Positions 6,301 through 55,347 of a stretch of DNA of 64,000 bases are shown one piece after another (position 1 is the stretch's first letter; every line of letters begins with the position of its first letter). The notes under the pieces are model-generated. The model saw nothing but the letters and a program-made list of their open reading frames with translations. It ran no database searches and had not been told where the DNA came from. The stretch is taken from assembly GCA_012862575.1 (NCBI GenBank), contig BLSF01000050.1, positions 1-64,000 of the forward strand, read 5' to 3'. This DNA comes from Parietichytrium sp. I65-24A (lineage: Eukaryota; Sar; Bigyra; Thraustochytrida; Thraustochytriidae). The position numbers and the translations under genes were made by a program.

Positions 6301-6849
6301 CAGCTGAAACCAAATCGGTCGGCAGGAGAGACACATGGGTGAACAATTGCCTTTTCTTTCCCTATGCTCAGCAGGCGGGAGATCCGTTGTTGTGAATTTA
6401 CTGCATGGCTGAGCGGCTTTCTCCAAGTGGTCCAGCGACAGCTTTTCGAGTCGTGTGAAGAAATCATTCTTCATGCTCACGTCCTTCGCAATCTTCTGCG
6501 CCAGTCGCGGGCAAAAGTACGCCATCTCCTCTGAGAGTCCCTGGCGGTCCGGCCTTATTGGCAACTGCAGAAGATCAAGCAGCAGTAGCTTTCTCCGCTC
6601 CATGACATCCCTTAAGCTACATGCCACACGCCCTTCTTCGTACGTCAGAAACGCCGTGGTCGATGCGAAGGCCACTTTATCATCGACCGATCTTTGCAGA
6701 AACCTCTGCCCCAGCAGCATCTTGCAATAGGCCGCACTATCCGCATCGAACTTCACCACCACCATCTTCGACTCACCGCAAGGACTGCACGCATCTGAAT
6801 CTGCATCTGCATCTCCAATTGCATCTGCAGATGCATATGCGTCGCTCAT
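3385..6849 (-). CDS. Large acidic, low-complexity protein with tandem ~84-residue repeats (unknown function)
   Basis: The first ATG of the open frame is at 6849; the frame extends 36 codons further upstream only through a GTG. That gives 1154 residues. The first ~210 residues look globular, with two Cys pairs (SPC near residue 21 and CSPMCLSC near 169-176). The rest is Ser/Glu/Asp-rich and probably disordered. Residues about 352-654 hold four degenerate tandem copies of an 80-86-residue unit. Each copy starts with Cys, then a SEEKAE-like block, a DEKDKSESED-like block and a HQExQSL block. A basic cluster (FKKKPR) near the C-terminus looks like a nuclear localisation signal, and the last ~50 residues are helical/coiled-coil-like. 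I recognise no family; a chromatin or centromere scaffold is only a guess. Confidence 0.8.
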   Translation of the reverse strand: MSDAYASADAIGDADADSDACSPCGESKMVVVKFDADSAAYCKMLLGQRFLQRSVDDKVAFASTTAFLTYEEGRVACSLRDVMERRKLLLLDLLQLPIRPDRQGLSEEMAYFCPRLAQKIAKDVSMKNDFFTRLEKLSLDHLEKAAQPCSKFTTTDLPPAEHRERKGNCSPMCLSCRPIWFQLSGGTKGPKTNNTYLCDMYVNPIIDLSKKSKSKASGKNFIVDLADADSASEAEAHVEAPLQNVAAKSSKLSDSEDDIATDNGEDESVQGEEDSNASTEVDDDDPYTPTAPSPSPSEHLQNEEATLPRSVEAEISHHSHDQQSARVDDAGPKPKPPNSASTPNTQSMAENCECASGGSEEKVGPVICSQVSGVQQDPDENDKSGSEDSSEIHQENQSLEDSTALESTSAANISLDRGAAQPSSAFPPDAIETPPTDLNCKSISAASEEKAETVRGSRISDAQRKSDEKDKSESEDASESHQEQQSLKKTTDVQSTSAAATTLNSGAPSPSLKETPRLDCELNCESSTTSNEEKAEISNDSQASDARQPGEINKSQTKEACEVYMELESLKKGAGGYISGGGSAASGSFSSLNSKATSQGELSCRNKPAASEGMTEIACDSEKLRVQRAPDENDKSGPEESCKFQTEKESNKEMAVVGKRSSRDHQILPARGKRFDEDDVNVAEIQKCGDTSSSLQESQDSVPRSGTNVSSIDKGPKTQVEIQQHSSKQDEVDIPVGSKPLLGMAVKHSEEREKSLMEPTSEGAGILQNSQQLGKENSRECRGAADSSPNFMQAGPRGSEAQLAHPTEMKPSMTKPPGNSVEREKQHQHLDSTEDFAPSALVSNLEASSTTTCKVDTLPTALGTKIAAAFGGPSRPQEFLLSNKQEESGGASALKAVSRPLPLPQASEQKKVVRDERCPGTEGRPPSKQIGGSATRKLPDGSEERHAEKLCCKSDPDQNHPEGDNQSCKSVNAKDPVFTGDHEAPPQREAPPEHRQKGGKRPLDSASGGRDPFKKKPRAEDSKSTRAAIEPERSIEEGHRGEATSKSSASSRGTESAAIELCKVKSVNTQLEKTSIELGLSFSASAVTGASNCTTETGFTASASIDSTERLFKEKIENARRAACDAMASIQKLRINTSNLLSVSQRIHQALGSS
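4888..5796 (-). repeat. Four degenerate coding tandem repeats (~250 bp each)
   Basis: Within the acidic protein, four copies begin at Cys residues spaced 86, 84 and 80 residues apart. They share an order of blocks: Cys, SEEK-A-E, SDA-R, DE-DKS-SED, HQE-QSL, then a Ser/Ala/Thr spacer. Divergence between copies shows the expansion is old. Confidence 0.7.
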
Positions 6850-8786
6850 CTTGCCCGCCGACTTGTCCAGAGAACCTGCGGATGGACCAGGGCGGAACCC
6901 GACGCCTGGGTTCCTCTCGCGAGAACCGGCGCGATCGCGTACTTGCGACCCCAGCACGGCAGCTCTCTCCTCTCTCCTCGCTCTTCTCCACTCTGCTCAT
7001 CTCATTGAACATGTGATTTTGAATGACAATCTGACTTGTGAAGTCCCTGCTCCTAGCGGCATGGTTAAGCAACAGCTTCGATGGGTCTACTTTCAGAGTA
7101 GTAATGTGTTAAGGTGTATTGTGGCAAGGTTTAAATGCGTATGCCAAAGCGTAGTGGGGCGAGAGATGGTTTTTGTTTTGATTTTGAATTTTGAAAATTA
7201 CATTTTTGGTTGTTTGCGACTCGGAGCTGTTGCATACACCGTGGTGGATGGGTGGGTGGGTACTCGAGGACACTTGAGGAAGTATGAGGGAAAGCATCGA
7301 GTTTTGATCCTGATGCGTGGGCGAGAGATTCGCAATTGAACGTGAATGACGCCGTCGATGGTCCTCGATGGGTCCATGAATGGGACCGGTGCATCTGGCG
7401 AAAGAAAGCTGCAGAAGAGACAGAAGAGAGACTCGAGAGATCGGCGTTCCGACCTTGCTATTGCAGGGCGAGAGACTTCAATCTGCCAAAGTCTCGCTGC
7501 AATTGCATTTTCAATCAGAGGCCGATCTGATCTGTGGCCTCTGATTGAAAATGCAATTGCAGCGAGACTTTGGCAGCTCACAGTCAAAACTTGCACTGTT
7601 TATACCGACACTTGCGCTCTGAGGTTCAGAGAATAGAAGCACACAGCAGAGTGCACTGTCAGATGCATCTGATTTCTGAATCGTCAGGTTCAAGTTGTGC
7701 CCGTTTTCAACGTGCTTGTTTTCATCGCACTGTCGTTCCAGTCTTGGTGATGTAAATTAGTATCCAAGACAGGCTCTGAAAAGGCTCTCGAGAGGCGTAC
7801 AGTCCAATACCAGAATACGTGCACACTATTAGGTGTTAGTCTGTAACATATAACGTTATGTCGCCTATTCGCTTAATAAATGTTTTGCAGTTTTTCCAGG
7901 CGGTGCGATGGAAGGATTGACGTTACTAAGTATTTTAAGGTATCAGGTAGAGTACAGAGTCATGAGTCCATCAGTCTGCGACTAGTGCATATGGTAGTTG
8001 TATGCTAGTGAAGTACAGGAGAGGTGTGGTAAGTAGCTTACAAGTGCATCGTGAGCGATGAACGATATAATTTTTGTGGAGCAAGCGAACAAGAGCAAGT
8101 ATCTCGAAACCGTGTCATGATAATGGGTTGGATGACTTCAATGTAAACGAAAACGTAGCTTGCCAAGATGCACTTGATTGTCAAGGAATTGGTTCAAAAT
8201 TGGGCGTGATGGAAGGATGAGAATAGTCTGGCGCGAACCGCACTATGACGATCGGAAACTGCGAAGGGATGCAACCTTGCGTACAGAAAGAATGCTGGAA
8301 GCCGTCAACTCTAGATGATGGCCGATCGCGCTGAGTCTTATTAGACCAAGGGGGTCTACACAAATCGCGCGGAGTAAAAGAGCACGGTAGTGCTCTCCAG
8401 CTCCAGCAAGTAGAACAAGATCTGAATGATATTCCTTCACAAGACTGTGACGGTTTTCGGTTCACCCAGGCTGCAACTTACATTCATGTAGGCACAGGCA
8501 CAGGCCTCCTTTTTCTTGTGGTGTCTACTCACTCGTCGAATGTGCCGGCACGCTGCCAACAGAAGTACGGTGCGGCCCTGATTGGCATTATTAACCAAAT
8601 GACAACTCGAGTAGACCCAAAACACCGGCGCGGCAGACCGTACTCTCCAAATCAAACTGCATGCGTTTGAGTTAATCACCTCATCCGAACGGTGTGAAGA
8701 TTTCATACATCGTTTCAGATATTCCGCGGTTGTTGGTTTCTGCAGCGGATACCTGTGGGAGCGCAGTTGCGCTGCGTTCGCTCACC
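6850..8786. other. Divergent intergenic region between the acidic-protein gene and Trk gene 1
   Basis: The two flanking genes are transcribed away from each other, so both promoters should lie in these 1.9 kb. No coding region was recognised. The notable object is the perfect long inverted repeat at 7483-7576, listed separately. Confidence 0.6.
7483..7576. repeat. Perfect 41-bp inverted repeat with 12-nt loop (long hairpin)
   Basis: The left arm (7483-7523) starts CTGCCAAAGTCTCGCTGC and ends CAGAGGCC. The right arm (7536-7576) is its exact reverse complement, and the spacer is GATCTGATCTGT. All 41 positions pair. It lies in noncoding DNA between divergent genes and matches no recognised element end. 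A small MITE-like relic, a hairpin RNA locus or a cruciform regulatory site are all possible. Confidence 0.9.
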
Positions 8787-10646
8787 ATGACATCAAAATC
8801 AGAGCACGGCAAACGCAAGAGGCAGCGCAGTTCTTGCATATCGGAGTCGCCGCAGAGCTATGATTCCGCAAAAGGTGAAGAGGAAGCAGTCAAGAGCGGA
8901 TGCCGAGACGGAAGCGCCAAGTCGAATCAGTGGAATGACGGGAATGGACAACATGATGAGCAGACCTTGAATTTTTGGGGCGTTCTGAAAGCAGTGAAAA
9001 TGTGGACCCAAAATCAACTTCACCTGAATTACTACCGCATCCATTTGCTCTACTTTACAGTGTTGACCCTAATCACAGGCACGTGCATTTATCTGCTCGA
9101 AGGCAGATCAATCTACTGGACTGATGGGTGGTTCACCGCGGCGAGCGCCTTGACGGTGACTGGCCTAGGCGTGATAGATTTCCCCGGCTCCAGCTCCGGG
9201 ACCAAGGCCTTTGTTACCATTCTGATCTGCTTGGGAGGACAGACTGGACTAGCGCTGGTTCCTTTGCTTGTGAGGCGGTTCTACTTCTTTTGGGTGAAGC
9301 GTAAGGAGTTCAACAAGTCCCTCTTGCAGGTAATTGTAGGTTGGAACGTCTCTGATGAACTTTCTGAACAGCAAAGAACCGAGATCAAAGCCATCTCTGC
9401 ACTTATTTGGGTCGTCATTTCGTATTCATTGTTTTGGACGCTGCTGTGCTTTATTGTGCTGGTTGCGTATTGCTCCTTGGTGCAGTCCGCGGCGGAAATA
9501 TTAGGCGAAATTCATCCCGCGTGGTTCGCTGCTTTCATTTCAATCTCCGCATTCAATAATGCCGGGTTCTCTTTGTTCTCTTCTTCCCTTCAACCTTTCC
9601 AGACTGACAAGACGATCCTTCTCGTGCTCTCTTTAGTCATCACTGTCGGAAACACACTTATGCCCGTGCTGTTGCGTTTTCAGGTGCACATGCTCAAAGT
9701 GTTGACGGGTCGGGAGATATACGCAAAGATTCTAGAGAATCCCCGGCAATATACCACCACGATTTTCAGCCGCGTGGAAAGCAGATGGCTCCTGATCGTG
9801 TGGATTTTCATCACCTTTTTCCAATTCATTCTCTACACGTTCGTGCCGTACGGGAGTGGTAGCAACCCATCCCTTGGTACGAAAGCCCTGGAAATGTGGT
9901 TTACGACAATCTGCACACGGACTGCTGGATTCAACGTCGTTGACCTTTCAAATTTGAGAGTCGGGATCCTCGTACTGCAGCTCTTGCTTATGTATCTCTC
10001 TAGCTACCCCTTCATTGTTGCGATCAAATCAACATCGGAGGTTCGCCTTTCAACATCCACTTCTTCGGATAGCCAAGGGCAAGAAGATGTGGAGTCTCCT
10101 CCCCCAACAGATCCCAGCGAAGGGCAAAGCACACAAAAGGAGAACAGACAAGACGAAGACAAGAACACAGGCGACCAAGGTAGCGGAAATATATTGATCG
10201 AAAATGAAACCGCTTTTGAGCTCAAACGCGTTCTTTCAAACGACGCAGTCTGGCTTTCTATTGCCATTTGGCTGATCGCTATGGTCGACGGAAACATCAG
10301 TTTGGAAAACATGTTTCGACTCATTTGGGAGGTCACTAGTGCGTATGGGAACATAGGTTTGAGTCTGTCTTATAGCTGGCAAACTGGTAGCTTTGGGACC
10401 TCGTTTTCCCTTCTGGCAAAAGTTATCCTCATCATTTGCATGCTTGCTGGTCGACACAGGGGGATGCCAAATAGTTTGGATGCTGCGGTCACTCCCATCG
10501 ACAAACCAAACGACTCGGAAAAGTCCAAACCCAAGCGGGGTTACGCCTCTTACCGAATGCCGAGCCGCAATCGCACCATTGGTTACTCCGGAGAGCACTC
10601 GGCGAGCCAGTCTCGGTCCGAGCTCAATTCTTTATTCAACACATGA
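8787..10646 (+). CDS. Trk/HKT-superfamily K+ (or Na+) transporter, paralogue 1
   Basis: Predicted plasma-membrane cation transporter of 619 residues. The ATG at 8787 (context CACCATG) is the first in the frame. After a charged N-terminus of ~75 residues come the paired transmembrane helices and four pore loops of the Trk fold. The pore loops are TASALTVTGLGVIDF (~118-132), SAFNNAGFSLF (~254-264), TRTAGFNVVDLS (~376-387) and SAYGNIGLSL (~518-527). Gly occupies the selectivity-filter position of all four loops, which in this superfamily favours K+. The GRHRGMPNSLD motif near residue 555 resembles the GRHRGLPYALD signature of fungal TRK proteins. The hydrophilic loop between pores 3 and 4 is acidic and only ~80 residues long, much shorter than in yeast Trk1. 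A second copy lies at 32043-34136. Confidence 0.92.
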   Translation: MTSKSEHGKRKRQRSSCISESPQSYDSAKGEEEAVKSGCRDGSAKSNQWNDGNGQHDEQTLNFWGVLKAVKMWTQNQLHLNYYRIHLLYFTVLTLITGTCIYLLEGRSIYWTDGWFTAASALTVTGLGVIDFPGSSSGTKAFVTILICLGGQTGLALVPLLVRRFYFFWVKRKEFNKSLLQVIVGWNVSDELSEQQRTEIKAISALIWVVISYSLFWTLLCFIVLVAYCSLVQSAAEILGEIHPAWFAAFISISAFNNAGFSLFSSSLQPFQTDKTILLVLSLVITVGNTLMPVLLRFQVHMLKVLTGREIYAKILENPRQYTTTIFSRVESRWLLIVWIFITFFQFILYTFVPYGSGSNPSLGTKALEMWFTTICTRTAGFNVVDLSNLRVGILVLQLLLMYLSSYPFIVAIKSTSEVRLSTSTSSDSQGQEDVESPPPTDPSEGQSTQKENRQDEDKNTGDQGSGNILIENETAFELKRVLSNDAVWLSIAIWLIAMVDGNISLENMFRLIWEVTSAYGNIGLSLSYSWQTGSFGTSFSLLAKVILIICMLAGRHRGMPNSLDAAVTPIDKPNDSEKSKPKRGYASYRMPSRNRTIGYSGEHSASQSRSELNSLFNT

Positions 10647-31841: not shown

Positions 31842-32042
31842 ATGTACATGCAGTGGCACTCCGCGGACGGCCAGGTCCTGCCCCACGACACCCACGACAC
31901 CCACGTCACGTGCTCGGAAAGTCCGTTCGCCAACAGGCTCCACGGTCACCAGACTGCGCGGCACACGCTGTGAACTCGAAGCGCAGGCCGCGTCTCGTGT
32001 GAGCTGTTGCAAGTCGCAAGGCTGCAGTAGTGGCTGCCGAAG

Positions 32043-34136
32043 ATGATCGAGGAGGCTGAGGAATGTAGCTCTAATGAGCCGCCGCTGGAAGCGCACGGTG
32101 CGTCGCTGGAGCCTGTGAAGGAGCTAACAGAGATGGACCTGGCCAAGCCGGAGGAGATGAGGCCGAGCGCTGTCAAGCCAGAGCCAGTTAAAGCCGAACG
32201 GCGCACATTGCACTTTGACCTGGAGAGAGCGCAACGACCAAAAGGTGGACATGCCATCAATCAAACAGAGTCACGGCAGTCAGTGGAAATCAGTCTCCAG
32301 GGCAGCCAGTCAAAAAAGAGAGGCTGGTTCTGCCAAGTCGCTGCCCAGTCGTGGAACTCCTTTTCGAGCTGGGTCAAGAAAGAAATGTACTTGGATTATT
32401 TCAGGGGCCATGTAATATACTTTGTACTGTTCACCATCTGTATGAGTATCGTCGTCTACGAGGTGGAAGGCGAGAAAATTCGCTGGCTGGATTGCTGGTT
32501 CACCACGGCGAGCGCGCTGACGCTCACCGGTCTTGGAGTTGTAGACTTTGTGAGCTTTTCAGTCGCTACCAAAGTCCTTGTCCTCATTATGATCTTCATG
32601 GGGAGCCAGTTGGCCTTTGCGATCGTTCCGCTTTTGATCAGACAGGCAAAGTACCGCTGGGACAATCGCAAGAAGAGGGACGGTTGGACTGACCTCTTTT
32701 GCCTCCCATCGTCGTGGGAGCTGGCGCGCAATCTGCCAAAATCAGACTTGGAAGAGCTGCGCGTACTTTCCTTCCTCGTGAAAGCTTACCTCTTGTATGG
32801 CTTCGTGTTTTGGCTTCCCGGCTTTATCGCCCTCATGGTTTACTGTAACATGAATCAAGAGGTGTTGGATACGCTCAGCGCCAACGGTATAGCACCCTGG
32901 GCCTTCGTCACATTCCACAGCTTCTCGTCTCTCCACAACGCTGGTGTGTCACTTTTCTCGGATTCGCTTGTGCAGTTTCAGGAGAACCGAGTCATCATTT
33001 TGATTACCTGTGTGTGGATCAGCGCAGGCAATACCCTTCTCCCAGTTTTCATGCGCTGCTTTTTGAACTATTTCTGTTTTCGAAAGAGCGACAAGGATAG
33101 TGTTAAGGCTGTGCTACGAAATTCCAGGCAGTATACCACACACATCTTCAGCGGGAAAGAGACTATTGCACTCTTTTTCGTGTGGTTCGGGACGACAATG
33201 TTTCAGTTTATCTTTTACACCGCCACACCGTACAACGAGCGCACGGAGACGGAGCCACTCAACGAAAAGGCCCTTGATATGTTTTTCACCACTGTCAGCA
33301 CTAGAACGGCTGGTTTCAATGTCTTGGATTTTGAGAGCCTTCGTGCGAGCATTTTGATGCTCCAGGTTTTGCTCATGTATCTGTCCAGCTACCCGTTCAT
33401 CGTTACCGTTCGGTCCTCGTATAAGCTCCGTGTCGATGTCGCAGAGCAAGACATGCTCCGTTTTGAACGGACAGACTTTGACTTTTTGTCAGACAAGTCT
33501 TTTTCAAACTTGGGAAACGAGCCGGACAAAGTCGTCGCTTCGAGGCCGCGAAAGCACGTGAAGAGTGCAAGCTTCTCTGGGCCCAAGAGTTCCTTGGATG
33601 GTGTGACTGGGATTCAGCCAATACCATCGTTTCAGGCCTTCCCACCGACACGCGGGGGCGAAGAAAAGGACAGCAAGGTAAAAATTATCGCTGACAATAA
33701 CTCTTCATCGAGGGAAGAACTGAAGAAAACCTTGTCCAACGATATCCTCTGGCTTGCTCTCAGCACCTGGCTCATTGCAACTTTCAATCCTTTCATGGAC
33801 ATTGAGACCTTGTTCAGACTCCTCTGGGAGGTGGTCAGCGCTTATGGAAATGTGGGCTTGAGTTTGCCAATACCGGGCTCCTCAGGGAGCTTCACCGCGT
33901 CCCTAAACGACTTTGGCAAAGTCGTCATCATCATCCTCATGATTGCCGGAAGGCATCGTAGTGTACCGCACGGATTGGACTCTGCGGTCGCTCCAGTTGC
34001 AGAGCAAGATGCTTCAAACCAGCGCGCTCAGCTCTTCAAAAACAAAAGTGTAAATCGCAACTCCTTCGTTGGGACACGAAGAAACCACTCCTCTCCGCAC
34101 CTTCCCGAGTCGTGGTTCGCCCTTGATCAAATTTGA
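32043..34136 (+). CDS. Trk/HKT-superfamily K+ (or Na+) transporter, paralogue 2
   Basis: 697 residues from an ATG at 32043. It is colinear with the gene at 8787-10646. An acidic N-terminus (~1-115) precedes the membrane core with four pore loops: TASALTLTGLGVVDF (~155-169), SSLHNAGVSLFS (~295-306), TRTAGFNVLDFE (~420-431) and SAYGNVGLSLP (~599-609). The GRHRSVPHGLD motif lies near residue 637. As in the first copy, all four filter positions are Gly, the pattern associated with K+ permeation in Trk/HKT proteins. The loop between pores 3 and 4 is longer (~110 residues, Ser- and charge-rich). Substantial divergence between copies indicates an old duplication. Predicted role is plasma-membrane K+ or Na+ uptake. 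Confidence 0.92.
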   Translation: MIEEAEECSSNEPPLEAHGASLEPVKELTEMDLAKPEEMRPSAVKPEPVKAERRTLHFDLERAQRPKGGHAINQTESRQSVEISLQGSQSKKRGWFCQVAAQSWNSFSSWVKKEMYLDYFRGHVIYFVLFTICMSIVVYEVEGEKIRWLDCWFTTASALTLTGLGVVDFVSFSVATKVLVLIMIFMGSQLAFAIVPLLIRQAKYRWDNRKKRDGWTDLFCLPSSWELARNLPKSDLEELRVLSFLVKAYLLYGFVFWLPGFIALMVYCNMNQEVLDTLSANGIAPWAFVTFHSFSSLHNAGVSLFSDSLVQFQENRVIILITCVWISAGNTLLPVFMRCFLNYFCFRKSDKDSVKAVLRNSRQYTTHIFSGKETIALFFVWFGTTMFQFIFYTATPYNERTETEPLNEKALDMFFTTVSTRTAGFNVLDFESLRASILMLQVLLMYLSSYPFIVTVRSSYKLRVDVAEQDMLRFERTDFDFLSDKSFSNLGNEPDKVVASRPRKHVKSASFSGPKSSLDGVTGIQPIPSFQAFPPTRGGEEKDSKVKIIADNNSSSREELKKTLSNDILWLALSTWLIATFNPFMDIETLFRLLWEVVSAYGNVGLSLPIPGSSGSFTASLNDFGKVVIIILMIAGRHRSVPHGLDSAVAPVAEQDASNQRAQLFKNKSVNRNSFVGTRRNHSSPHLPESWFALDQI

Positions 34137-38339: not shown

Positions 38340-39309
38340 TTTTGGGAGAGAACTACGCGGCCTTGACTCGAGAGATAGGCTAGCACAAAAAGGAAAAACG
38401 GAAAGAGCTCTTCAAACAGGAGCAAAAAATTTGGAATGCGATTTAGGACGGAATAAAGACCCTCCTCGTCTCCTCGTCAACTCCCACTGACCTTGACCCA
38501 GCTGCTCAGAGCAAATTAAGTTGACCCCTCGCGAAGAAGAAGTCAAGAAAGATACGCTGAAAAAACTGATTGCCCATTGGTAGCTGGAGCAACTCATCGC
38601 TGATTGCACTAGGCCAGTTGAGGTTCACAGACTGCGCCGACGAAAGGAATTACGAGTTATGAACCATTCAAAGTCGAAAAAACGAGGTAAGGTGCATGTG
38701 CAGCATGGCTTGTGAGGGAAGATCCTCTGGGGTCGGAGGCACAACTTCGAGGCATCGTTTGGGAAATCTTCAAAATGGCTAAACAATTTTTAGCGTGGAG
38801 CATTGTGACTGTGCATACCACGAAAACAGTTTTTGAGTCTGATGAGCGTGACAGATGCTCGATTTCTCTGCAACAGTAGCAGCGAAGATGGTTGGTTGCG
38901 GAACATCTATCAGAAAGGAGAGAACAATCATACAACAAAAATATCAGTCGCTTCGCCATCTCCAGATCTCAAAGAATTAAGCCGTTGCAGGCTGCACCTC
39001 TGAGTCTGCAATTTTGCGCGCTTAGCACTTGAAAGTAACAGCGAACGCCTCGAGGTGATGGAGGTCTGCATAACATACATGCACGTAGTGAATACCTCTC
39101 TCCGCCGTCTTGGTGGCGAGCTTTTCGACCTCTTTCTTGGTTAGGCCTTAGCATTTGATATGAGGAAGGCCTGTGCCAGCACTTGAATTGGCAGACACTG
39201 AACTGTAGCATCGGAATCGCGAGTTCAGGCAAGTCTGGAGCATTCGCCCGACCCATCAGAGCAGGTATTGAAACCAGCGCGCGCGGTTCGAGAACTCGGA
39301 ACCAAGGAA

Positions 39310-42300
39310 ATGCGCACTCTCCCACTTTTGTCGCTCGTTGCCGCCGCATTTGGAGTAACACAGTCATCTGCCGATTGCGGATGCAAAAATCGATCTGACA
39401 CACGCGTTGGATTCGTCACCTTCAAGCCGCAAGAGACTTACCAAATTGGTGAGTACATTAGTGGGTTTCGCGAGGCGTCCAAGCAGCTCAGAATTGCCGG
39501 CACTGTTTACGCGCCATCAAAAGATGATTTTGTCAATGTCCACAGCAGAGATATTAGCGAAGCTTTTAGGGCCATGCTCGACGATGCAGTAGCCTCTGAC
39601 CCGCACGCTCTTGTCATCAACGTTCCGGATCTCGGAGCGGAATCCGACTACCTTCGCTCACAAGTCCCTTCAGGTGTATCCGTGGTTCTCGTCGGAAACG
39701 GCATTCACGAAGCAAGTTCTAATAGCACCTTGTTTCAAGGGCTCACTCACATTGGAGTGGACGAGTACGAGGTTGGATACGAATTCGGAGTTCAGGCAGT
39801 TCGCCAGCAGGTTACATCTGCGCTTTGCATCTATTATGAGAGTTCGAAGGAAACTGCCGAAACAGAGCGTTGCGAAGGGTTTCTAGCCGGCTTCAACGAT
39901 ACATGCACTGCGAACAAGATCACTTGCACTTCAGAGGCCGTGGAAATGTCGATTGGAAACGTCTATGACTTTGAAGAAAAATTGGAAGCCAAACTCCAAG
40001 AATCCAACCACGCTTCAACGAATTTCGTCGCGGTTCAGGGTGGCATCGCCGCCAAACATGCTTCCACCGTGCTGTCCGGGCTCGGACGCTCGTCTAGTAA
40101 AATTGTCAGCTTTGTCGCAGATAGCGAAGCCTCGGAACGCTTGGACGCAGGCACACTCAATTCCGCAACTGACAGAGAGGACTATTTGGCAGGATATATG
40201 GGTGCATTCCTCTCTACATACTCGGCTACCACAGGACAGAGACCAGCCAACGAAGTTTTAAAGTCCAAACAGAAAATCATCACCAGCTCAATCAAAACAC
40301 CATCAACCACCATTGACCAGCTGCGACTTGACTTTATCGTACACGGCCGTGGTGTCGACGGCTTTTGGCTCGTCTTCAAGGAAGGTGGCCAGGAGGCTGC
40401 GCGGGACCTTGGGCTAGACTTTGAGGACTGTTCACTCCCAAATGCAGATTGTGACACAAAGCTTGGACGGATTGCATATCGCTCTCCAGAAAGCGAATTT
40501 GACCTCACTGACCAATCCTTTCAGATTCTTGAGGCCGGAAACTTGGATCCCCAGGTCAATGGTTTGATGATCAGTATCCCCAATGTCGATGCCCTCCAGA
40601 ACGCCATCGAAACCGTCGGGGAATATAACATTCCGTCTGTAAGTGTCAACGCCGGAGGTGATGTCTATAAGGACTTTGGGCTCATAGCCCATTACGGCCA
40701 AGAGGAGGTGGCGGCCGGAAAAGCCGCTGGTGGCCGCATGGCCCAGGTGGCTACAAAGACCCTCATGCTCAATCACGAGAAAGGAAACAGTGTCATGGAA
40801 AGCCGCCATGATGGGTTCAAGGCGGGCTTTGAAGAAGCGCTGGGCCAAACGGATATCACCACCGTGGACACTTACACCTTCGGGGATGCGAGTTCTTTTG
40901 GGGAGAAAGCGGTTGACTTTCTTGTCGCCAATACGGACTACGACGCCCTCATGTTCCTGGGAAACTCCTTCAACCTCACCAAGGCGAATGAGCTATTTGA
41001 AGCAGCCGGGATTACGAGGAAGATTTACATCGGGCAATTTGATATTGTTGACGAGACTGTGGACCATATTCTTGCCGACCGCCTGGAGTTTACAATCCAG
41101 CAGCAGCAGCAAATGCAAGCATATCTCCCTCCAATCGTTCTCGCCAACCGGGCCCTCACAGGGCAGATTCTCGACGAAGACTGGATTCTGACGGGCCCAG
41201 CGATAGTTGCTAAAGATAATGCCGCAGCTGTCACCTGCCAGCACGAGCTCACCTGCACTTTTGAGGAGGAGTACGCACTGGAGTGTCCGATGCCACAAGC
41301 CAAGTCCGACGGCTGGTGTGACTCCGTCAATAACATTGAAGCGTGCGACTACGACGGTGGCGACTGTTGCGAAGAGACGTGTGAGAGTACAACCGCATTC
41401 ACATGCGGAGAAGATCGATTCTCATCTGGCCTCAATCAGTTCACCTGTCGCGATCTGGACACGCTAGAGGGTCTCAAGTGGTTTTGTGGGGAAAATTCAG
41501 AAGACCCGGTGTGCACTGGGGTCAGTTTTCGCGAACCCACTCTTTTCAACTTGGGCCTGCTCCTCGACATCACTTACGCGGACGCTGAGACAGAGTCCGA
41601 CTGCGATCAAGGCGTGTGGGACGCCTCCAGCGAAACCTGCTTCGTCGATGTGCCTACCCGTCTAGCGTCCTTGTTAGCGATGCTCGCCGTGAAGCATTTT
41701 AACGAACGGATTGGCACTATCATGGAAGATTTTGCGACGTTAGGCACGACGTGCAACAAGATCCTCACAGTAACGGTTGCCGACGCTGGGGATAGTGTGG
41801 CTCAATCCATAGAAGGTGTGATGACATTGCTGAGGACCAATAGCAGCGACGTCGTGATCGGTCCATCCTCCTCTTCCGCGGCTCTCTCCACTGCTCTTCT
41901 TTCTGGCGTGTATGCTGTTCCGCAGATTTCTCATGGTGCGACCTCTGTTCGGTTGAACGATAGAGAGAGTTTTCCCCATTTTTCCCGCACAGTCCCATCA
42001 GAGGATGAGAACGCGGCGGCAATATGTTCTTTCTGGAAATCGCTAGGGTTTCGCTTTGCAGCGGTTTTATTCCCAGAGACACAGGATGGAGAGTCTAGGC
42101 GCCAGAGTGTCACAAAAAACTGTGCCAGTGTCGACATTGATATCTATACCTTTGCCTACACCGCGAACGACAATTCTACAGCACAATCTGCGATACAACA
42201 ACTGGCGGCCTCAGAGATCAATGCCGTCATGCTTGTCGCGTCCGCAAGAGACTCTACGACAATCTTGACCAGTGCTTTCGAAAGTGGAGTCCTCGGCCAA

Positions 42301-44015
42301 GGCACTTTGTGGGTCCTCGACTCCAACTTGCTCGCCGTCGACACTGACAACGGAGAGACGTGGATCGACAAGATCGAAGCTACGTTGCCGGGCTTCCGCG
42401 CAGCACTGTCCGGTTCAGTAAGTGTCCGGCCTCAAGGAGGAGTGGCGGAAAACAAAGCTTACAAGAATCTTATCAATGCATGGTCCAACTTGAGCATTGG
42501 CGAACTCATTGACAACTTTCCGTCTGGTTTTCTTAGCTCTGACTTCTCCGTCTACGAATCCTACATAGATCGAGCTGAGCTAGGCTCAATTGCAGCGTAC
42601 ATATTTGATGCAGTGGCGTTGGTTGGCCTTCACACCTGCGCATTGCATCCATCCACGGCGCTTAACGAGTCATTCGCAGAAAACTTAGCTGCCATTGCAA
42701 CGCAAGAAGCTGTGGTGGGTATGACCGGCTCAGTGCAGCTCAACAGCAAGGGGAATCGTAATCTGGATTCCGTCGTCATGGAAATTGTGAACTACCTGTA
42801 TCAAGACAGCGCATGGAAGCAGGTGATAGTGGCTCAAATCGCGAGCGCCTCTGGAAACATCACCTCCTTGAGTGATGTCGTGTTCAATGGCGACTTGTCG
42901 GACGCTATCACCGATGTACAGATCCCGACTCCAGAGTTGGGCTACGATTCGGCAGTTACGGCGGTCTCTTTCGTGTTCTTGTTCATCAATGTTTTGGTTT
43001 GCTGCATTTGTATGGCATTTACAATCATATATCGAAAACACTCCGTCGTCCGTGCGGCGCAGATGCCTTTCTTGTTGCTCATGACATTTGGCGCTCTGAT
43101 CTCGTCCCTCACAATCATACCCATGACAATCACGGACGAAGGCGGCATTCTTGCAACCGAAGACGGTGGGAATACAAGTGCTGATATGGCTTGCATGGCG
43201 TCAGTCTGGCTGTACACTATTGGTTTTGTATTGACTTTCGCGCCCCTTTTCGCGAAATTAGCCCGTGTGAAAAAGATTTTCTTGGACTCGCTGAAGAACG
43301 CGGTGAACAAATCCCGTCGCGCAAGCTTGTCAAACATGGCGCTCGTCAAGACCATCACCAAGATTGCGCTCGGGGACACGTTGCTTATGGTTATCTGGCA
43401 GATCGTTAGTCCGCTCAAGTACAAGCGCACCGTTATCTCATATGACACCTACCAGAACCCGACCCTATCCCTGGGATCATGCGCAAGCGATCACGCAATC
43501 GTCTTCATCATCATCATCGGAGTGTCTCACCTCTCCCTGCTCATTTATGGCTCCTATATCTGCTACCAGACCAGCGGGGTCAACGTCGCCTTCAGCGAAT
43601 CGCGATATGTTTCGATTGTAAGTTTAGACTGGTGTGGATGAGGTGAAATTGAGCTCAATTCAGTTTTGAGGTTTTCTAACAACTTGTATTTCTGCTGAAT
43701 TCGCAGGCCATGGTGTCCAATTTGCAATTGCTCCTGGTGTGTATTCCTGTTCTCGTTATTGTTTCAGACAGTCCCAAGATGAGTGTTTTTCTACGCTCTG
43801 GGGCTGTCTTTCTCAATGACCTTTCGGTCCTTTTCGCAATTTTCGGTCCTAAAATGTACTATGTATATCTCGGCTCAGTGGGTTCGGATGGAGTTGGCGG
43901 AAACATTATAGGAAGCTCTGATAGCTCAACCTCCCGAAAGATTGCACCCACAGGCGCAATCACAGGCGCTGCATCCACGGGAGCAGTCTCTTCGACAACA
44001 AATCAATCAAAATAG
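39310..44015 (+). CDS. Class C GPCR with two bacterial-type sugar-binding domains, an LNR module and a third Venus-flytrap domain
   Basis: Two exons (39310-43617 and 43707-44015) joined in phase 0 give 1538 residues; the first ATG in frame is 39310. A signal peptide (~1-21) precedes a Peripla_BP_4-like domain (~32-360) that begins VGFVTFKPQETYQIGEYI. A second such domain follows (~385-625). A Notch/LNR-like Cys module comes next (~648-692, SDGWCD then CDYDGGDCC). A eukaryotic ANF-type flytrap spans ~745-1165 (AVKHFNERIG, then VVIGPSSSSAALSTALLSGV). The 7TM_3 domain runs from ~1212 and ends in FGPKMYYVYL, the PK motif after TM7 of GABA-B/glutamate-type receptors. The C-tail is short, Ser/Thr-rich and noncanonical. 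It should sense ligand outside and signal through G proteins; the ligand is unknown. The two extra sugar-binding domains are the unusual part. Confidence 0.88.
43618..43706 (+). other. GPCR intron (89 nt)
   Basis: GTAAGT at the 5' end, TTCTAAC branch-site-like motif and TTCGCAG at the 3' end. It joins SRYVSI to AMVSNLQ inside a predicted transmembrane helix, restoring the family's late-TM sequence; without removal the frame stops after 7 codons. Confidence 0.9.
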
Positions 44016-44800: not shown

Positions 44801-45149
44801 AGACACACAGAGGGGGCCGCCACCAGCGTTCAGAGATGTTCAGGGCAGGAATTTCATGGCACCACGCCTGATCGTAACTGGCCAACTAGGCAGCGTACCT
44901 CCCCTCCTGCTAATAGTGTCTATAAGGGTCAATAGACTTTCACATACGCAGCATAACACAAAGTAAATTCGGTGACCGATGGGATTAGTGAATTCTGTAA
45001 TTGCCAAGGTGTGCGAAACTGGACACGCAGTATCACGCGGTAACCTAGTACGAGAACTACTCGTGGTCAGATGATGATCATCAGGGTGGTCGAGGTGTTC
45101 GAGATTGAAGGACCGGCCGCGCAAAAGGGAATCGGAAAGAGTCGCAAAG

Positions 45150-46280
45150 ATGGTCAAAGTTGTTCCAGGATTCGGTGTGGTGAAGCTCGCGGGTCCAGTG
45201 CTGGACCTGTCGTGCCCTTGTGGGTTCTCCGGCGACAATTGCACCATCCAGGAGGTCGTTGACGCGGACGGGGGCTCGGAAGCTGTCCGAGAAGTTCCTG
45301 GCGGAGTTTGCGGGAACGGAGATCCTGACAAGACGTATGGATGCGTTGCCATTGACTCGAAAGCTGTTTGCTCCTGTGCATTTGGCTACGGAGGGGACCT
45401 CTGCCTCGAACGCGCCGAGGGAGACACGTTTCCTATCGTCGCATCGCAGATACTCCTTCCCGTGCTCACCATTTTGATCTGCCTCTACAGACTGCGAACA
45501 CGTCGGCCGAGCTCCTGGGATAGGCCAGAGCATGAGCCCATGCAGCTGTATGCTGGGAGGGCGTCCCCGTCAGTGGTTCTCCTCTGGCGGACGATAGCGC
45601 TGATCGTGACGCTGTCAGCGCTTATCAGCGACCTCATTCGTCTGGAGTTTGACGACTTCATGATCCAGACCCGCCAGATTTCCACCACAACGTTTTTGCT
45701 GTTCATCTTTTATCTCATCTTGTCGATCGCTCTGACAGTCAGCTACTACTGGTCCGGCGGAAGGCAGGCCTGTGAGCAAAGAGATGCCAGGGCAATGGAG
45801 AAGTTCTGCCACATCGTCCATATCGTCTGCCTCCCCATTTTGTTGAACATTACTGTTCTGTTCTGGCTCGTTATTGTCCCAGTCACCATCCAAGAGGGTA
45901 TCTCATTTCTCGTTCTTTACTACGCAAGCTACGTGAGGCATGGAGTGGCATTTGTTTGTGCATTGGTGGACTTCCTGGTATCCGGCATGCACATCTCCAT
46001 GCGGGACATCCCTTACGTTGCAATCTACGGATCTCTTTATCTTATCTGGCACGCATCCAACTTGTTGTTTGAGAAATATGTCCAGGATGCGCCGCATCGC
46101 CCTGCATACTGGTTCCTTGGCGGAGCCAATGTTTACATGTTGTGGCCAGAGCTTGTAGTCGCGCTATTCTTTGCGTTCGCATTGTTCTTATTTGACAGAA
46201 CCGATCGCTGCTGGAAGAAGGAAAAGAATCTGAATGCCAAAGCCAGCGAGCTTGCAGTCGGACCTCAAGACATATTGTAA
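45150..46280 (+). CDS. EGF-like/multi-pass membrane protein, array member a (intronless)
   Basis: 376 residues from the ATG at 45150 (MVKVVPGFG). The N-terminal ~95 residues are Cys-rich. CPCGFSGDNC (~22-31), VPGGVCGNGD and CSCAFGYGGDLC form two EGF-like knots. About seven hydrophobic segments follow. The pattern of the last five (helix beginning VRHGVAFVCALVDFLVS, then YVAIYGSLYLIWHASN, then a PxRPAYWFL loop before the final helix) loosely recalls the Rolling stone and AIG1/FAR-17a families. There is no obvious signal peptide, so the first helix probably acts as signal anchor with the EGF part outside. It is the most divergent member and lacks the intron of b-d. Its C-terminus (GPQDIL) also differs. 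Function unknown; surface adhesion or sensing is a guess. Confidence 0.83.
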   Translation: MVKVVPGFGVVKLAGPVLDLSCPCGFSGDNCTIQEVVDADGGSEAVREVPGGVCGNGDPDKTYGCVAIDSKAVCSCAFGYGGDLCLERAEGDTFPIVASQILLPVLTILICLYRLRTRRPSSWDRPEHEPMQLYAGRASPSVVLLWRTIALIVTLSALISDLIRLEFDDFMIQTRQISTTTFLLFIFYLILSIALTVSYYWSGGRQACEQRDARAMEKFCHIVHIVCLPILLNITVLFWLVIVPVTIQEGISFLVLYYASYVRHGVAFVCALVDFLVSGMHISMRDIPYVAIYGSLYLIWHASNLLFEKYVQDAPHRPAYWFLGGANVYMLWPELVVALFFAFALFLFDRTDRCWKKEKNLNAKASELAVGPQDIL

Positions 46281-47991: not shown

Positions 47992-49203
47992 ATGGGGAAC
48001 TCAGCCTCGGAGCTAGCTTGCCCTTGTGGGTTCGTCGGCGAGAACTGCTCCGAAACGGGGTTTCAAGTGAACGACGTTGTCACGTTCAAGGCCGTGACGA
48101 GCTTTCCTGGCGGCGTGTGCGGCAACGGGAATGCCGAGGCAACATTTGGGTGCTATGAAACGGACCCTGGAATAGGTGAGTTTTCGTAAATTCAGAAGGC
48201 CGCTGTATGTATGACAGGTGGGATGCTAACTTGGGCTTGTTGATAAAACCTCGCAGCTCAGTGTATTTGTCAGGCGGGCTATGAAGGCGTGCTTTGTTTA
48301 GACGAAAAGACTTTAGTTTTGCCAGCACTGATTATTTCGGGCATCCTCCTCCCTATTGCAGTCCTGATTTACTCCACTTTCAGAGTAGAGAAAGACATTT
48401 CGTCAGGCTCCTTCTCCAATAGACTCTCTCCAGAAATTGCTGCAACTGGAAGAGCCAGCGATTTAATGACGTTTCTGTATAGATTTTTCTCGCTCGTTAC
48501 ATTGCTGATCATATCGGCTTTGAACAGCATTTGGTGGGGCAGCTTCGTAAAGACGTTCACAATGGTTAGATTTTTCACCAACTATACTTACCTCGTCGAG
48601 GTGATCTACTTCGCCATCGTCACAGTCCTTAGCGCAAAACAATTGTTGCATCGTGGGAAAAAACTCAACGAAGAACCTTCGCGGTGGGAGGTGGCCGCAA
48701 ACGCTCTCTTAGTCATCTGTGTGCCAAGCGAAATAATCGTAGTCACGGTTTTTTGGGGAGCGATTGTCCCTTACGCTGTGATCCACAACTTGGAATTTGT
48801 TGTACTAAATCCTGTTGGCTATTGGATGCACTCAGCCGTCTTCGTCATCATATTCATGGAGTTTCTGAATTCGCGAATGAGGATACGTTCGTCAGATTCT
48901 TACCTCGCCCTTCTGAGTGGCGCGCTGTATCTTCTCGGGCATAACTCTATTATGCTGTTTGACTACGCAATGGGAAAGCCTCACAAACCATCATACGACT
49001 TCATTTCGGGCACCTGGCAATATTTCGTATGGCCGTTAATTGTCATCATGGGCTTTGTTACGCTCGCTATTCGGATTCTCATTCGCGTGGAGGCTCACGT
49101 GAAACCGGCACTCTCGCCCATCGTTCCTGTCTCCGATAAGTCAAACCCGGACTCTAAGTTCGCCTTAGCCGAAGAGCCCCATGCGGAGCTTGCTCAGGTA
49201 TGA
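47992..49203 (+). CDS. EGF-like/multi-pass membrane protein, array member b
   Basis: Two exons, 47992-48175 (184 nt) and 48257-49203, joined in phase 1, give 376 residues. The start MGNSASEL is the first ATG. The EGF-like part has CPCGFVGENC (~10-19), FPGGVCGNGN and, across the splice, CICQAGYEGVLC. Seven hydrophobic segments follow: first LPALIISGILLPIAVLIYS, then a pair around FTNYTYLVEVIYF, later MHSAVFVIIFMEFLNSRM and YLLGHNSIMLFDYA, and last YFVWPLIVIMGFVTLAI. It ends ELAQV, as does gene c. It is the closest relative of gene c through the whole length. Family resemblance is to Rolling stone/AIG1-like multi-pass proteins, weakly. MGNS could be N-myristoylated, which would put the N-terminus inside; see findings. 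Confidence 0.86.
48176..48256 (+). other. Intron of array gene b (81 nt)
   Basis: GTGAGT donor, GCTAAC branch-like motif, CTCGCAG acceptor; phase 1, splitting an Ala codon before QCICQ. Confidence 0.9.
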
Positions 49204-50570: not shown

Positions 50571-51804
50571 ATGAGCTTCCCAGACTCTGAGCTGACGTGC
50601 CCATGCGGGTACGTCGGCGAGAATTGCTCTCGAACGGGGTTTCGAGTTGACGATCTTGTCACGTTTAAGAACGTGACGAGCTTTCCCGGGGGTGTATGTG
50701 GCAACGGCGACGCGGAGATGGTTTACGGCTGCTATGAAACGGGCGATGGAATAGGTGAGTTTGATGGGGCGAGGCCTTGGCACGGCGGCATAACTTTGAA
50801 AGAAGGATGACCGGCGGCATGCTGACTGGTGTTTGTTCTTTGATCTCGCAGCTGAGTGCGTGTGTCAGACGGGCTACGGAGGTGCACTTTGTCTAGATAA
50901 GCGGATGCTGGTTCTGCCGGCCTTTATTATTTCGTGCATCGTGCTGCCTCTTGCAATGCTGATTTATTCTACCTACAGGGTTCAGAAGGACATCTCAGCA
51001 GGGTCCTTCTCTCAAAGACTCTCTCCAGAGATTGCTTCAAGTGGCCGAGCGGGACTTTTCTTGACATTTCTTTACAGAGCCTTGGCATTCATTGGGTTGG
51101 TGGCTATTTCAATTGGGAATAGCATATGGTGGGGAAGCGTTGTGAAAGTGTTTCTGATGCTGAAATTTTTCACCCATTACGTTTATTTTATCGAAATTTT
51201 CTACTTTGGCGTGGTCACGGTCTTGAGCGCTAAGCGTTTATTGCGTCATGGAGAGAAAAACAATGCAGAACCATCAGGGTGGGATGTGCTGGCAAATTCT
51301 CTGTTAGCCATCTGCGCGTCTAGCGAAGTAGTCGTGGTCATCATGACTTGGGGAGCGATCCTTCCTTACTCTGCCGCGCACAACACAGCGTTTTCGGTGC
51401 TACACCCTGTTAGCTACCGGATGCACATAGTTGTCTTCTTCATCATATTCCTGGAGCTTATGAACTCTCGCATGAGGCTACGCTCGTCGGACTGTTATAT
51501 CGTCTTCCTGAGTGGCTCGTTATATCTTCTCGGACATAACTCTATAATGCTTTTCGATTACGCAAGTGGAGAACCTCACAAACCGTCATACGCATTCATT
51601 TCGGGTACATGGATGTATTTCATATGGCCACTGTTCGTCATCATGGGCTTAGCAAAGCTCGCTATTTGGGGACTCTCGCGTCTGGAAGCTTGCGTGAAGC
51701 CACCGTTATCACCCGTTGAGCCTGATTTAACTGACAGTGAGGCAGAGCCAGACGCCAAGTCGACTTTGCCCAAAGCATCCCCTGCGGAACTTGCTCAGGT
51801 ATGA
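50571..51804 (+). CDS. EGF-like/multi-pass membrane protein, array member c
   Basis: Exons 50571-50754 (184 nt) and 50852-51804 join in phase 1 to give 378 residues, starting MSFPDSELTCPCGYVGENC. The EGF-like Cys pattern (CPCGYVGENC, GGVCGNGD, CVCQTGYGGALC) and seven hydrophobic segments match gene b almost block for block: SPEIASSGRAG, SIWWGSVVK, FTHYVYFIEIFYFGVVTVLS, YLLGHNSIMLFDYAS and FISGTWMYFIWPL. The C-terminus is ELAQV. Similarity to b is high enough for a fairly recent duplication; the exon 1 length and intron position are identical. Predicted membrane protein with a small extracellular EGF-like head; the function is not known. Confidence 0.86.
50755..50851 (+). other. Intron of array gene c (97 nt)
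   Basis: GTGAGT donor, GCTGAC branch-like motif, CTCGCAG acceptor; same position and phase as in genes b and d. Confidence 0.9.
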
Positions 51805-54135: not shown

Positions 54136-55347
54136 ATGGACTATCCAGAAACAGAGCTAGACTGCCCTTGCGGGTACATTGGAGAGGACTGCTCGAGCAC
54201 GGGCTTCCTGCTGGAAGGCGAGCTCACCTACAAAAATGTGACGAGCATGCCTGGTGGGGTTTGTGGTGACGGAGAGCTGTCAAGAGTGTACGGGTGCTTC
54301 GAAACCCAAGATGGCGTCGGTGAGTTTTGGAGGCACTTGATATACGAATGAAAGAAAACGTCGACACGACAAACTAACCCCTTGATATCAATCTCTGCAG
54401 CGGAATGTCTTTGTCAGTATGGCTGGAGAGGCACGCTATGCAACGAGAGGATCGAGCTTGACATGCCTGTTTTCATCATCACTGCGATTCTGCTGCCCAT
54501 CGCGATTCTCCTATACTCGACCTACAAGGTGCACCAGATCCTGTCGTCTGGTGAATTCGTCGGACGGCTCTCGTCAAAAATTGTTGTGACTGGCAGAGTC
54601 GGCCCTGAGTACATCTGCCTGTATAGAGTCGTGGCATTTCTCGCATTGGTGACGATCCTGGTCCTAAATTTCTTGGAGTTTGGTGTTGTCCCAACAATTT
54701 GGTCGGTGAGGTATTTCACCTACTTTACATTCTTCCTCGAAATTGTGTACTTTGGTCTCGTAACCATTTTGAGCGCTCGACACCTAACCCGTCCAGAGCG
54801 GACTTCCGACTCTGAGTTCACCTCATGGGACATTCTTGCAAACGCACTCCTCATCGTTTGTGTTCCAAGCGAGGTGGTCGTTGTGGTTATCACGTGGGCC
54901 GGAATATTTCCATTCACTCTCATGAACAATCAGGAATTCCTGGTGTTGAACGTGTTCAGCTACCTTTTGCACATTGTGGTTTTCGTGATCATTTGCGTGG
55001 AGTTTTTGTGCACCCACATGAGAATCAAGCGCTCGGACTGCTTCTTTGTGTTTTTGACAAGCGCATTGTATCTCCTCGGGCACACATCTATGATGGTTGC
55101 CGACTATGCCAACGGGATCCCGCATCGGCCATCTTATGACTTTCTCAGCAGCACCTGGCCGTTCCTTCTGTGGCCCCCGCTCTTCATTCTACTTTTGATC
55201 AAATTTACTCTGTGGGTTCTCTCGCGCTTAGAGGCTTGCTTGAATCCGTCTCGCGACCAGGCGAATGTGGATCCGTGCGTGGAAGATCCTGACTGCGACA
55301 ACAAGGCTGAGGTCCAGGAGAAGCCCTCGGATCTCACACAGGTTTAA
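54136..55347 (+). CDS. EGF-like/multi-pass membrane protein, array member d
   Basis: Exons 54136-54319 (184 nt) and 54401-55347 join in phase 1 to give 376 residues starting MDYPETELDCPCGYIGEDC. The EGF-like part (CPCGYIGEDC, GGVCGDGE, CLCQYGWRGTLC) and seven hydrophobic segments follow the b/c pattern, including FTYFTFFLEIVYFGLVTILS, LHIVVFVIICVEFLCTHMR, YLLGHTSMMVADYANG and FLSSTWPFLLWPP. The C-terminus is DLTQV, which fits a class I PDZ-ligand pattern. It is more diverged from b and c than they are from each other. The last 19 codons and stop are included in a perfect 104-bp tandem duplication that continues past the gene. Confidence 0.86.
54320..54400 (+). other. Intron of array gene d (81 nt)
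   Basis: GTGAGT donor, ACTAAC branch-like motif, CTCTGCAG acceptor; phase 1, splitting an Ala codon before ECLCQ. Confidence 0.9.

Follow-up and report, generated by a model that had tools for sequence, protein, structure and literature searches.

The receptor gene and its domain order

The window analysed here is a stretch of 64,000 nucleotides from the thraustochytrid Parietichytrium sp. I65-24A (contig BLSF01000050.1, positions 1 to 64,000). It carries on its forward strand a gene for a receptor with three Venus flytrap modules. The predicted product of 1538 amino acids comprises a signal peptide, two consecutive flytraps of bacterial type (flytraps 1 and 2), a cysteine-rich connector with an LNR-like motif, a third flytrap of the ANF_receptor type and a class C seven-transmembrane domain (7TM). 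The parts are listed in Table 1, in which the flytrap boundaries (residues ~30-318, ~334-646 and ~742-1194) are taken from structure models. The host is a non-photosynthetic eukaryote; no chlorophyll a/b-binding protein was found in a search of its genome, and searches for rRNA found none.

The product is obtained by joining two exons (39310-43617 and 43707-44015), the first of which is enclosed by a stop-free frame of 1479 codons (39202-43641). The intron of 89 nucleotides starts with GTAAGT and ends with CAG. A Pfam scan of exon 2 alone matched no family. This exon supplies the last two hydrophobic segments, which align with the last two transmembrane (TM) segments of two paralogous receptors described below. 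Both paralogues are intron-less at the junction and align continuously through it, which supports the splice and the gene model. A first-pass annotation, made from the letters of the window alone, had proposed that the intron restores the terminal PK motif; this is supported by its GT..AG ends, by the FGPK of exon 2 and by the intron-less paralogues.

On exon 1, Pfam identifies Peripla_BP_4 (5.9e-33) over two stretches, with 54.2 and 64.4 bits against a cut-off of 35.1, and overlapping pieces of the exon scanned separately give 2e-14 and 1.5e-17. The same chain contains ANF_receptor (1.2e-28, residues 819-1158) and 7tm_3 (4.3e-26, residues 1212-1435; 92.5 bits against a cut-off of 33.5). The two periplasmic-binding-like domains, the ANF-type flytrap and the 7TM domain read from the sequence at first pass are thus all recovered by profile searches, and the first two are also recovered as modelled folds. 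The residue limits first given for the three flytraps are shifted somewhat by the models.

Table 1. Parts of the three-flytrap receptor gene, in coordinates of the window.
Feature	Position	Strand	Basis or remark
Signal peptide, residues 1-22	39310..39375	+	By eye: hydrophobic MRTL.. start; the C20 paralogue has MRAL..
Flytrap 1 (VFT1), residues 30-318	39397..40263	+	Rhizopine/inositol-type substrate-binding fold; pocket residues largely lost
Flytrap 2 (VFT2), residues 334-646	40309..41247	+	Rhizopine/inositol-type substrate-binding domain; pocket-type residues retained
Cys-rich connector, 12 cysteines, residues 643-735	41236..41514	+	All 12 invariant in three paralogues
LNR-like motif inside connector, residues 659-691	41284..41382	+	Notch/LNR score below cut-off
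Flytrap 3 (ANF_receptor domain), residues 742-1194	41533..42891	+	
Class C 7TM, TM1-TM5, to end of exon 1	42937..43617	+	7tm_3 4.3e-26; hydropathy
Intron, 89 nt, GT..AG	43618..43706	+	Sequence; intron-less paralogues
Exon 2: TM6, TM7 with FGPK motif, C-terminal tail, stop	43707..44015	+	Paralogue alignment

Three paralogous receptors

The eukaryotic comparison was made within the window's own genome (42.5 Mb in 172 contigs). It contains 82 matches to 7tm_3, a number that counts some genes more than once. A search with Peripla_BP_4 (E 0.1) gives five matches in three frames, and all three are also 7tm_3 frames: the window receptor and two others, C20 (locus L016) and C54 (locus L021), which lie on two further contigs. 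The domain order is the same in all three. C20 and C54 are 29-43% identical to the window receptor by domain, the LNR-like segment excepted. Compared in pairs, the three receptors share 26-41% identity over flytraps 1 and 2, 31-37% over the ANF flytrap and 34-43% over the 7TM domain. On the 7TM tree the window receptor pairs with C54 (support 98/87), and C20 belongs to a group of 18 rows, in which it sits at an open fork.

The LNR-like part of the connector is the best conserved. Region 641-692, which includes this segment, is 51-58% identical among the three receptors, the highest value of six segments compared (33-37% for the remaining cysteine-rich linker), and the CDYDGGDCC-type motif and 12 cysteines (643-735) are retained in all of them. 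The LNR pattern of Notch has six cysteines together with DGGDC. Five of these six are in place here, the fourth is replaced, and DGGDCC is present in all three receptors. The Pfam Notch model (PF00066) gives the window protein 16.2 bits (E 0.015), under its gathering cut-off of 21.2. In a genome-wide Notch search (E 0.1, nine matches) the window copy is absent, and C20 (24.0 bits) and C54 (22.3 bits) are found at the same place in the receptor; in scans of whole proteins C54 scores 13.4 bits and C20 is unlisted at E 0.5. The LNR module of the first-pass annotation is thus weakened: in the window protein it stands as a motif but stays under the Pfam cut-off, and we refer to it as LNR-like.

A viral contig from IMG/VR (L039:527-616) encodes a cysteine-rich protein whose LNR-like stretch has 67% identity with that of the receptor over 30 residues; this stretch is all that the two have in common. 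The scans of viral contigs found no relative of the flytrap tandem, and an Rfam scan of the window gave no match.

The receptor half

The closest PDB sequences to the 7TM domain are the GABA-B subunits, in agreement with the initial description of a 'GABA-B-like receptor'. The ANF flytrap is closest in sequence to mGlu5 and T1R3 and retains serine-rich stretches (GPSSSS and GATS) that line up with mGlu5. The folds nearest to its structure model include GABA-B, LivK and mGlu8, which tie within 1 Z. NCD3G, the cysteine-rich domain that mGlu, T1R and CaSR receptors carry between flytrap and 7TM, gave no match on exon 1 at E 1, and between residues 1110 and 1295 no cysteine is common to the three paralogues.

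Class C GPCRs (G protein-coupled receptors) carry a cysteine pair that links TM3 to the second extracellular loop. C1295 and C1391 are invariant in the three paralogues and, judged by position, would correspond to this pair. The last TM segment carries the PK motif (GPK, IPK and VPK across the three receptors), which is described as a class C feature of TM7 (PMC3727952). Judged by its 7tm_3 domain, ANF flytrap, cysteine pair and PK motif, the receptor is a predicted class C GPCR. The genome also contains at least 10 G-alpha loci, and signalling machinery therefore exists. In thraustochytrids, GPCR and G-protein domains are reported to be enriched (PMC6050695).

Bacterial relatives of flytraps 1 and 2

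For both modules, the best PDB match by sequence is 4RU1, a CUT2 substrate-binding protein (SBP), and this is also the best match of each structure model; flytrap 1 was absent among the 50 structure matches listed for the whole model and was hence folded alone. NCBIfam (E 0.01) offers a single family for the two modules, the rhizopine SBP family NF052284 (1.8e-24 and 8.7e-38); rhizopine is an inositol derivative. Scores of 86.4 and 130.1 bits (modules) and 210 bits (whole exon) fall short of the equivalog threshold, 420 bits, as do those of three bacterial relatives scanned with the same model (264.7, 363 and 379 bits). By these scores flytraps 1 and 2 are related to the rhizopine ABC transporter family and are not members of it.

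Scanning bacterial genomes yielded 363 confirmed relatives; an earlier scan with two patterns drawn from the receptors alone had found none. The bacterial analyses used the best 80 of the 363, which are 29-37% identical to the modules. An SBP tree of 62 rows (41 of the 80 relatives, 15 comparison rows and the six receptor modules; midpoint root) places all six modules within a 50-row group that holds the rhizopine-type SBPs (93/98). Twelve of the comparison rows fall outside this group. Of those inside, two (L127 and L129) are rhizopine-type SBPs that the set contained anyway; the third, L128, sits on a very long branch, and its placement is untrustworthy. The three flytrap-1 rows form a group (100/100), as do the three flytrap-2 rows (100/98). 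Support for the two flytraps as sisters is weak (87/37), and in a second tree the best topology lacks a clade of the six modules, yet such a clade is not rejected (p-AU 0.383, approximately unbiased test); long branches affect both trees. It is plausible that the tandem arose by duplication after one capture.

The gene neighbourhoods of the bacterial relatives point to a ligand class. A homologue of an inositol-catabolism protein (IolG in 44 loci, IolE in 7, IolD in 4) lies within flanks of up to 2 kb in 55 of the 80 loci, many of which belong to Halomonas and close kin and are hence not independent, compared with two of 27 control loci (other Peripla_BP_4 proteins from three genomes), whose flanks were shorter (1.5 kb). 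The two positive controls (L144 and L149) have rhizopine-type SBPs about 1.5 and 5.4 kb away in their own genomes. The iol query open reading frames (ORFs) were chosen by eye, and seven ORFs picked from six loci were checked with profiles. This check places iolD over the cut-off in L042, iolG slightly under it in L043 and truncated by the locus end in L054 and L074, and iolE under it in L097; L054 also has an RpiR-type regulator, and the oxidoreductase ORF of L104 is not iolG.

A Sinorhizobium meliloti SBP annotated as rhizopine-binding through its homology to MocB is reported to be required for growth on myo-inositol (PMC2597717) and to bind myo-inositol with a dissociation constant of 0.47 uM (PMC3454389).

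The first-pass annotation had spoken of two modules 'of bacterial sugar-binding type'. Their bacterial substrate-binding nature stands; the generic sugar type is replaced by an inositol/rhizopine type because of the sole NCBIfam match, the grouping in the SBP tree and the inositol-catabolism neighbours in the bacterial loci.

Pocket-type residues of flytraps 1 and 2

The two modules are unequal, so that the 'sugar-sensing tandem' initially proposed is better described as a pair in which flytrap 2 alone keeps the pocket-type residues. The positions are those taken, by alignment, to correspond to ligand contacts of ribose-binding protein. Flytrap 2 has W353, N447, R499, D578, Q598 and Q599 in all three receptors; the bacterial relatives have the N, R, D, Q and Q in 80 of 80 and the W in 79. 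At the corresponding positions flytrap 1 retains only the R, in the three receptors, and the second Q, in C54. Similarly, for the 80 alignment columns that are at least 85% conserved among the 80 bacterial SBPs (a few of which extend past the ends of the receptor modules), flytrap 2 keeps 53 in the window receptor, 46 in C20 and 52 in C54, and flytrap 1 keeps 27, 32 and 34, respectively. Another strongly conserved residue, E152 in flytrap 1 and E466 in flytrap 2, is present in all six modules.

Proposed mechanism and alternatives

The reading that we prefer, with a probability of about 0.45, is that flytrap 2 senses an inositol-like cyclitol, that flytrap 1 is its degenerate partner and that the ANF flytrap drives the 7TM domain. 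A GABA-B-like class C ectodomain would have been extended by tandem substrate-binding domains akin to the ones that serve inositol/rhizopine ABC transporters in bacteria. Flytrap 2 would close on the ligand (myo- or scyllo-inositol, an inosamine or a relative), and flytrap 1, which would no longer bind it in the ordinary manner, may have a structural, dimerising or ancillary role. The cysteine-rich LNR-like segment, possibly held by calcium, would relay the movement to the ANF flytrap; this would drive the 7TM domain as in GABA-B receptors, with output through one of the G-alpha proteins of the genome. The ANF flytrap may also bind a ligand of its own, in which case the receptor would detect two inputs.

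Several observations weigh against this proposal. The pocket equivalences are putative, as they derive from an alignment and from the ribose contacts of ribose-binding protein. Flytrap 1 has an invariant D271 two residues beyond one of its lost pocket positions, and a shifted pocket in this module is therefore possible. The module scores (130 and 86 bits) are far under the NF052284 equivalog cut-off of 420, so that specificity may have shifted; moreover, NCBIfam covers bacterial and archaeal proteins, which leaves room for a eukaryotic family that it does not model. The S. meliloti inositol SBP is reported to have Arg90 in common with ribose-binding proteins (PMC3454389). At this position the receptor modules and the 80 relatives have S or A, and flytrap 1 of the window receptor has N; the S. 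meliloti protein, known here by its description, may therefore belong to another subgroup. Finally, the arrangement of the domains is unreliable in the whole model (predicted template-modelling score, pTM, 0.54), in which the LNR segment has a per-residue confidence (pLDDT) under 50.

The strongest rival, which we nevertheless judge rather unlikely, is that flytraps 1 and 2 are a non-sensing stalk for spacing, dimerisation or adhesion and that ligand binding is left to the ANF flytrap alone, with an amino acid or a GABA-like compound as a possible ligand. The loss of most pocket-type residues from flytrap 1 would fit such a stalk, as would the GPSSSS and GATS stretches that the ANF module shares with mGlu5. 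Long, mixed ectodomains are usual in this genome, whose other class C GPCRs include forms with LamG-cadherin-type or triple-ANF ectodomains. A spacer, however, would have no need of the W, N, R, D and QQ that flytrap 2 retains in three diverged paralogues, together with 46-53 of the 80 conserved columns.

If flytrap 2 does sense a ligand, this could be a small molecule of another kind than inositol (a monosaccharide, for instance, or a sugar carrying amino or methyl groups), although we regard this as unlikely. The bacterial relatives are only 29-37% identical, the NF052284 scores are under the equivalog cut-off and 25 of the 80 loci lack an inositol-catabolism homologue in their short flanks; in S. 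meliloti, too, pairwise similarity is reported to be a poor guide to which transporter carries inositol (PMC2597717). Against this, the residues kept are those of 80 of 80 relatives (79 for the W), and 55 of the loci do contain such a homologue. An artefact of the gene model, in which two adjacent genes or a bacterial contaminant were fused in assembly, is extremely improbable and was rejected in view of the single stop-free frame of 1479 codons and of a domain order repeated on two other contigs, in frames that share 29-43% identity with it domain by domain, the LNR-like segment excepted.

Comparison with known receptors

GABA-B receptors, the nearest by 7TM sequence, also have an ANF flytrap joined to the 7TM domain without an NCD3G match. 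The window receptor differs in the two bacterial-type flytraps and the LNR-like cysteine-rich segment placed in front, and its ANF sequence is nearer to mGlu5 and T1R3. Flytrap 2 shares its fold and pocket-type residues with the bacterial rhizopine/inositol CUT2 SBPs (4RU1), but here the modules are fused in tandem to a eukaryotic receptor and flytrap 1 has lost most of these residues.

Fusions of other kinds have been described. Class C GPCRs of Phaeodactylum carry a bacterial module like a sugar SBP on a protist class C 7TM domain; compared by description only, these have short N-termini, and the portions of the paper available name no tandem, ANF domain or LNR (PMC3727952). In anaerobic gut fungi the SBP domain of sugar uptake serves as the ectodomain of class C GPCRs, but it is of the type II fold, and the authors report no ANF domain in any of them (PMC5168858). 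Other SBP families are reported on class C receptors of fungi and Dictyostelium (PMC3251606). The receptor adenylate cyclases of Trypanosoma brucei, as described, also have tandem flytraps on one membrane receptor, but there are two of these, on a single TM segment with a cyclase domain and not on a GPCR (PMC6027212). The main text of a survey of choanoflagellate GPCRs does not contain the words Peripla, Venus or tandem (PMC12716839). No paper combining Peripla_BP_4 with a GPCR was found in the literature searched. The architecture had been called undescribed at first pass; this agrees with that search for the Peripla_BP_4 fusion itself, but not for SBP-type modules on class C receptors in general, which are in print for a diatom and for gut fungi.

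The fusion of a bacterial nutrient-binding protein to a 7TM receptor is stated to be the origin of class C GPCRs (PMC5168858). We tentatively suggest, at rather less than even odds, that the window receptor is a later repeat of this founding fusion, in which a bacterial binding protein for inositol uptake was captured, duplicated and joined to a GABA-B-like receptor to give a three-flytrap, two-input cyclitol GPCR. Here a second and still recognisable bacterial-type pair precedes the old flytrap; its bacterial relatives have been identified and a probable ligand class can be proposed. The fusion scenario for class C thereby becomes testable, and the receptor is a candidate GPCR for extracellular inositol-like compounds.

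Other class C receptors and neighbouring genes

Flytrap stacking recurs in the genome, since two other class C GPCRs, L009 (C8:535000-544000) and L010 (C8:550000-559500), also have three tandem ANF-like stretches before the 7TM domain (in L009 the locus end truncates the first of these). The special feature of the window receptor is the bacterial inositol-type pair.

Seven further class C GPCRs have Laminin_G_3 ectodomains, with Cadherin_4 at or over the cut-off in four of them (L012, L015, L018 and L023). They occupy two 7TM branches, L015/L018/L023 and L011/L012/L014/L020, a pattern suggestive of ectodomain swapping among the 7TM lineages of class C in this genome. Locus L025 (C19:466000-475500) contains two adjoining TIG-Bmp-7tm_3 receptors; BMP ectodomains are reported on amoebozoan Grl receptors (PMC10445921). 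A protein with a weak 7tm_3 match at L024:1672-6183 (30.5 bits with hmmscan, below the cut-off; 35.5 in the genome search) has a SAM_2 match near its C-terminus.

A genome search for a PfaA-type polyunsaturated fatty acid synthase gave nothing over the cut-off and so lends no support to a DHA-producing kind of thraustochytrid; a frame of 5583 residues (C66:8562-22499) has repeated partial matches of the PfaA polyketide-synthase type, all below the cut-off.

In the window, four forward-strand frames downstream of the receptor (45078-46277, 48247-49200, 50800-51801 and 54352-55344) have in common an EGF-like cysteine motif with hydrophobic segments after it; the three of them that were scanned gave no Pfam match. 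An open frame of 1203 residues on the reverse strand (3388-6996) has no Pfam match at E 0.001. Two TrkH-type cation transporters are encoded on the forward strand at 8676-10643 and 32031-34133.

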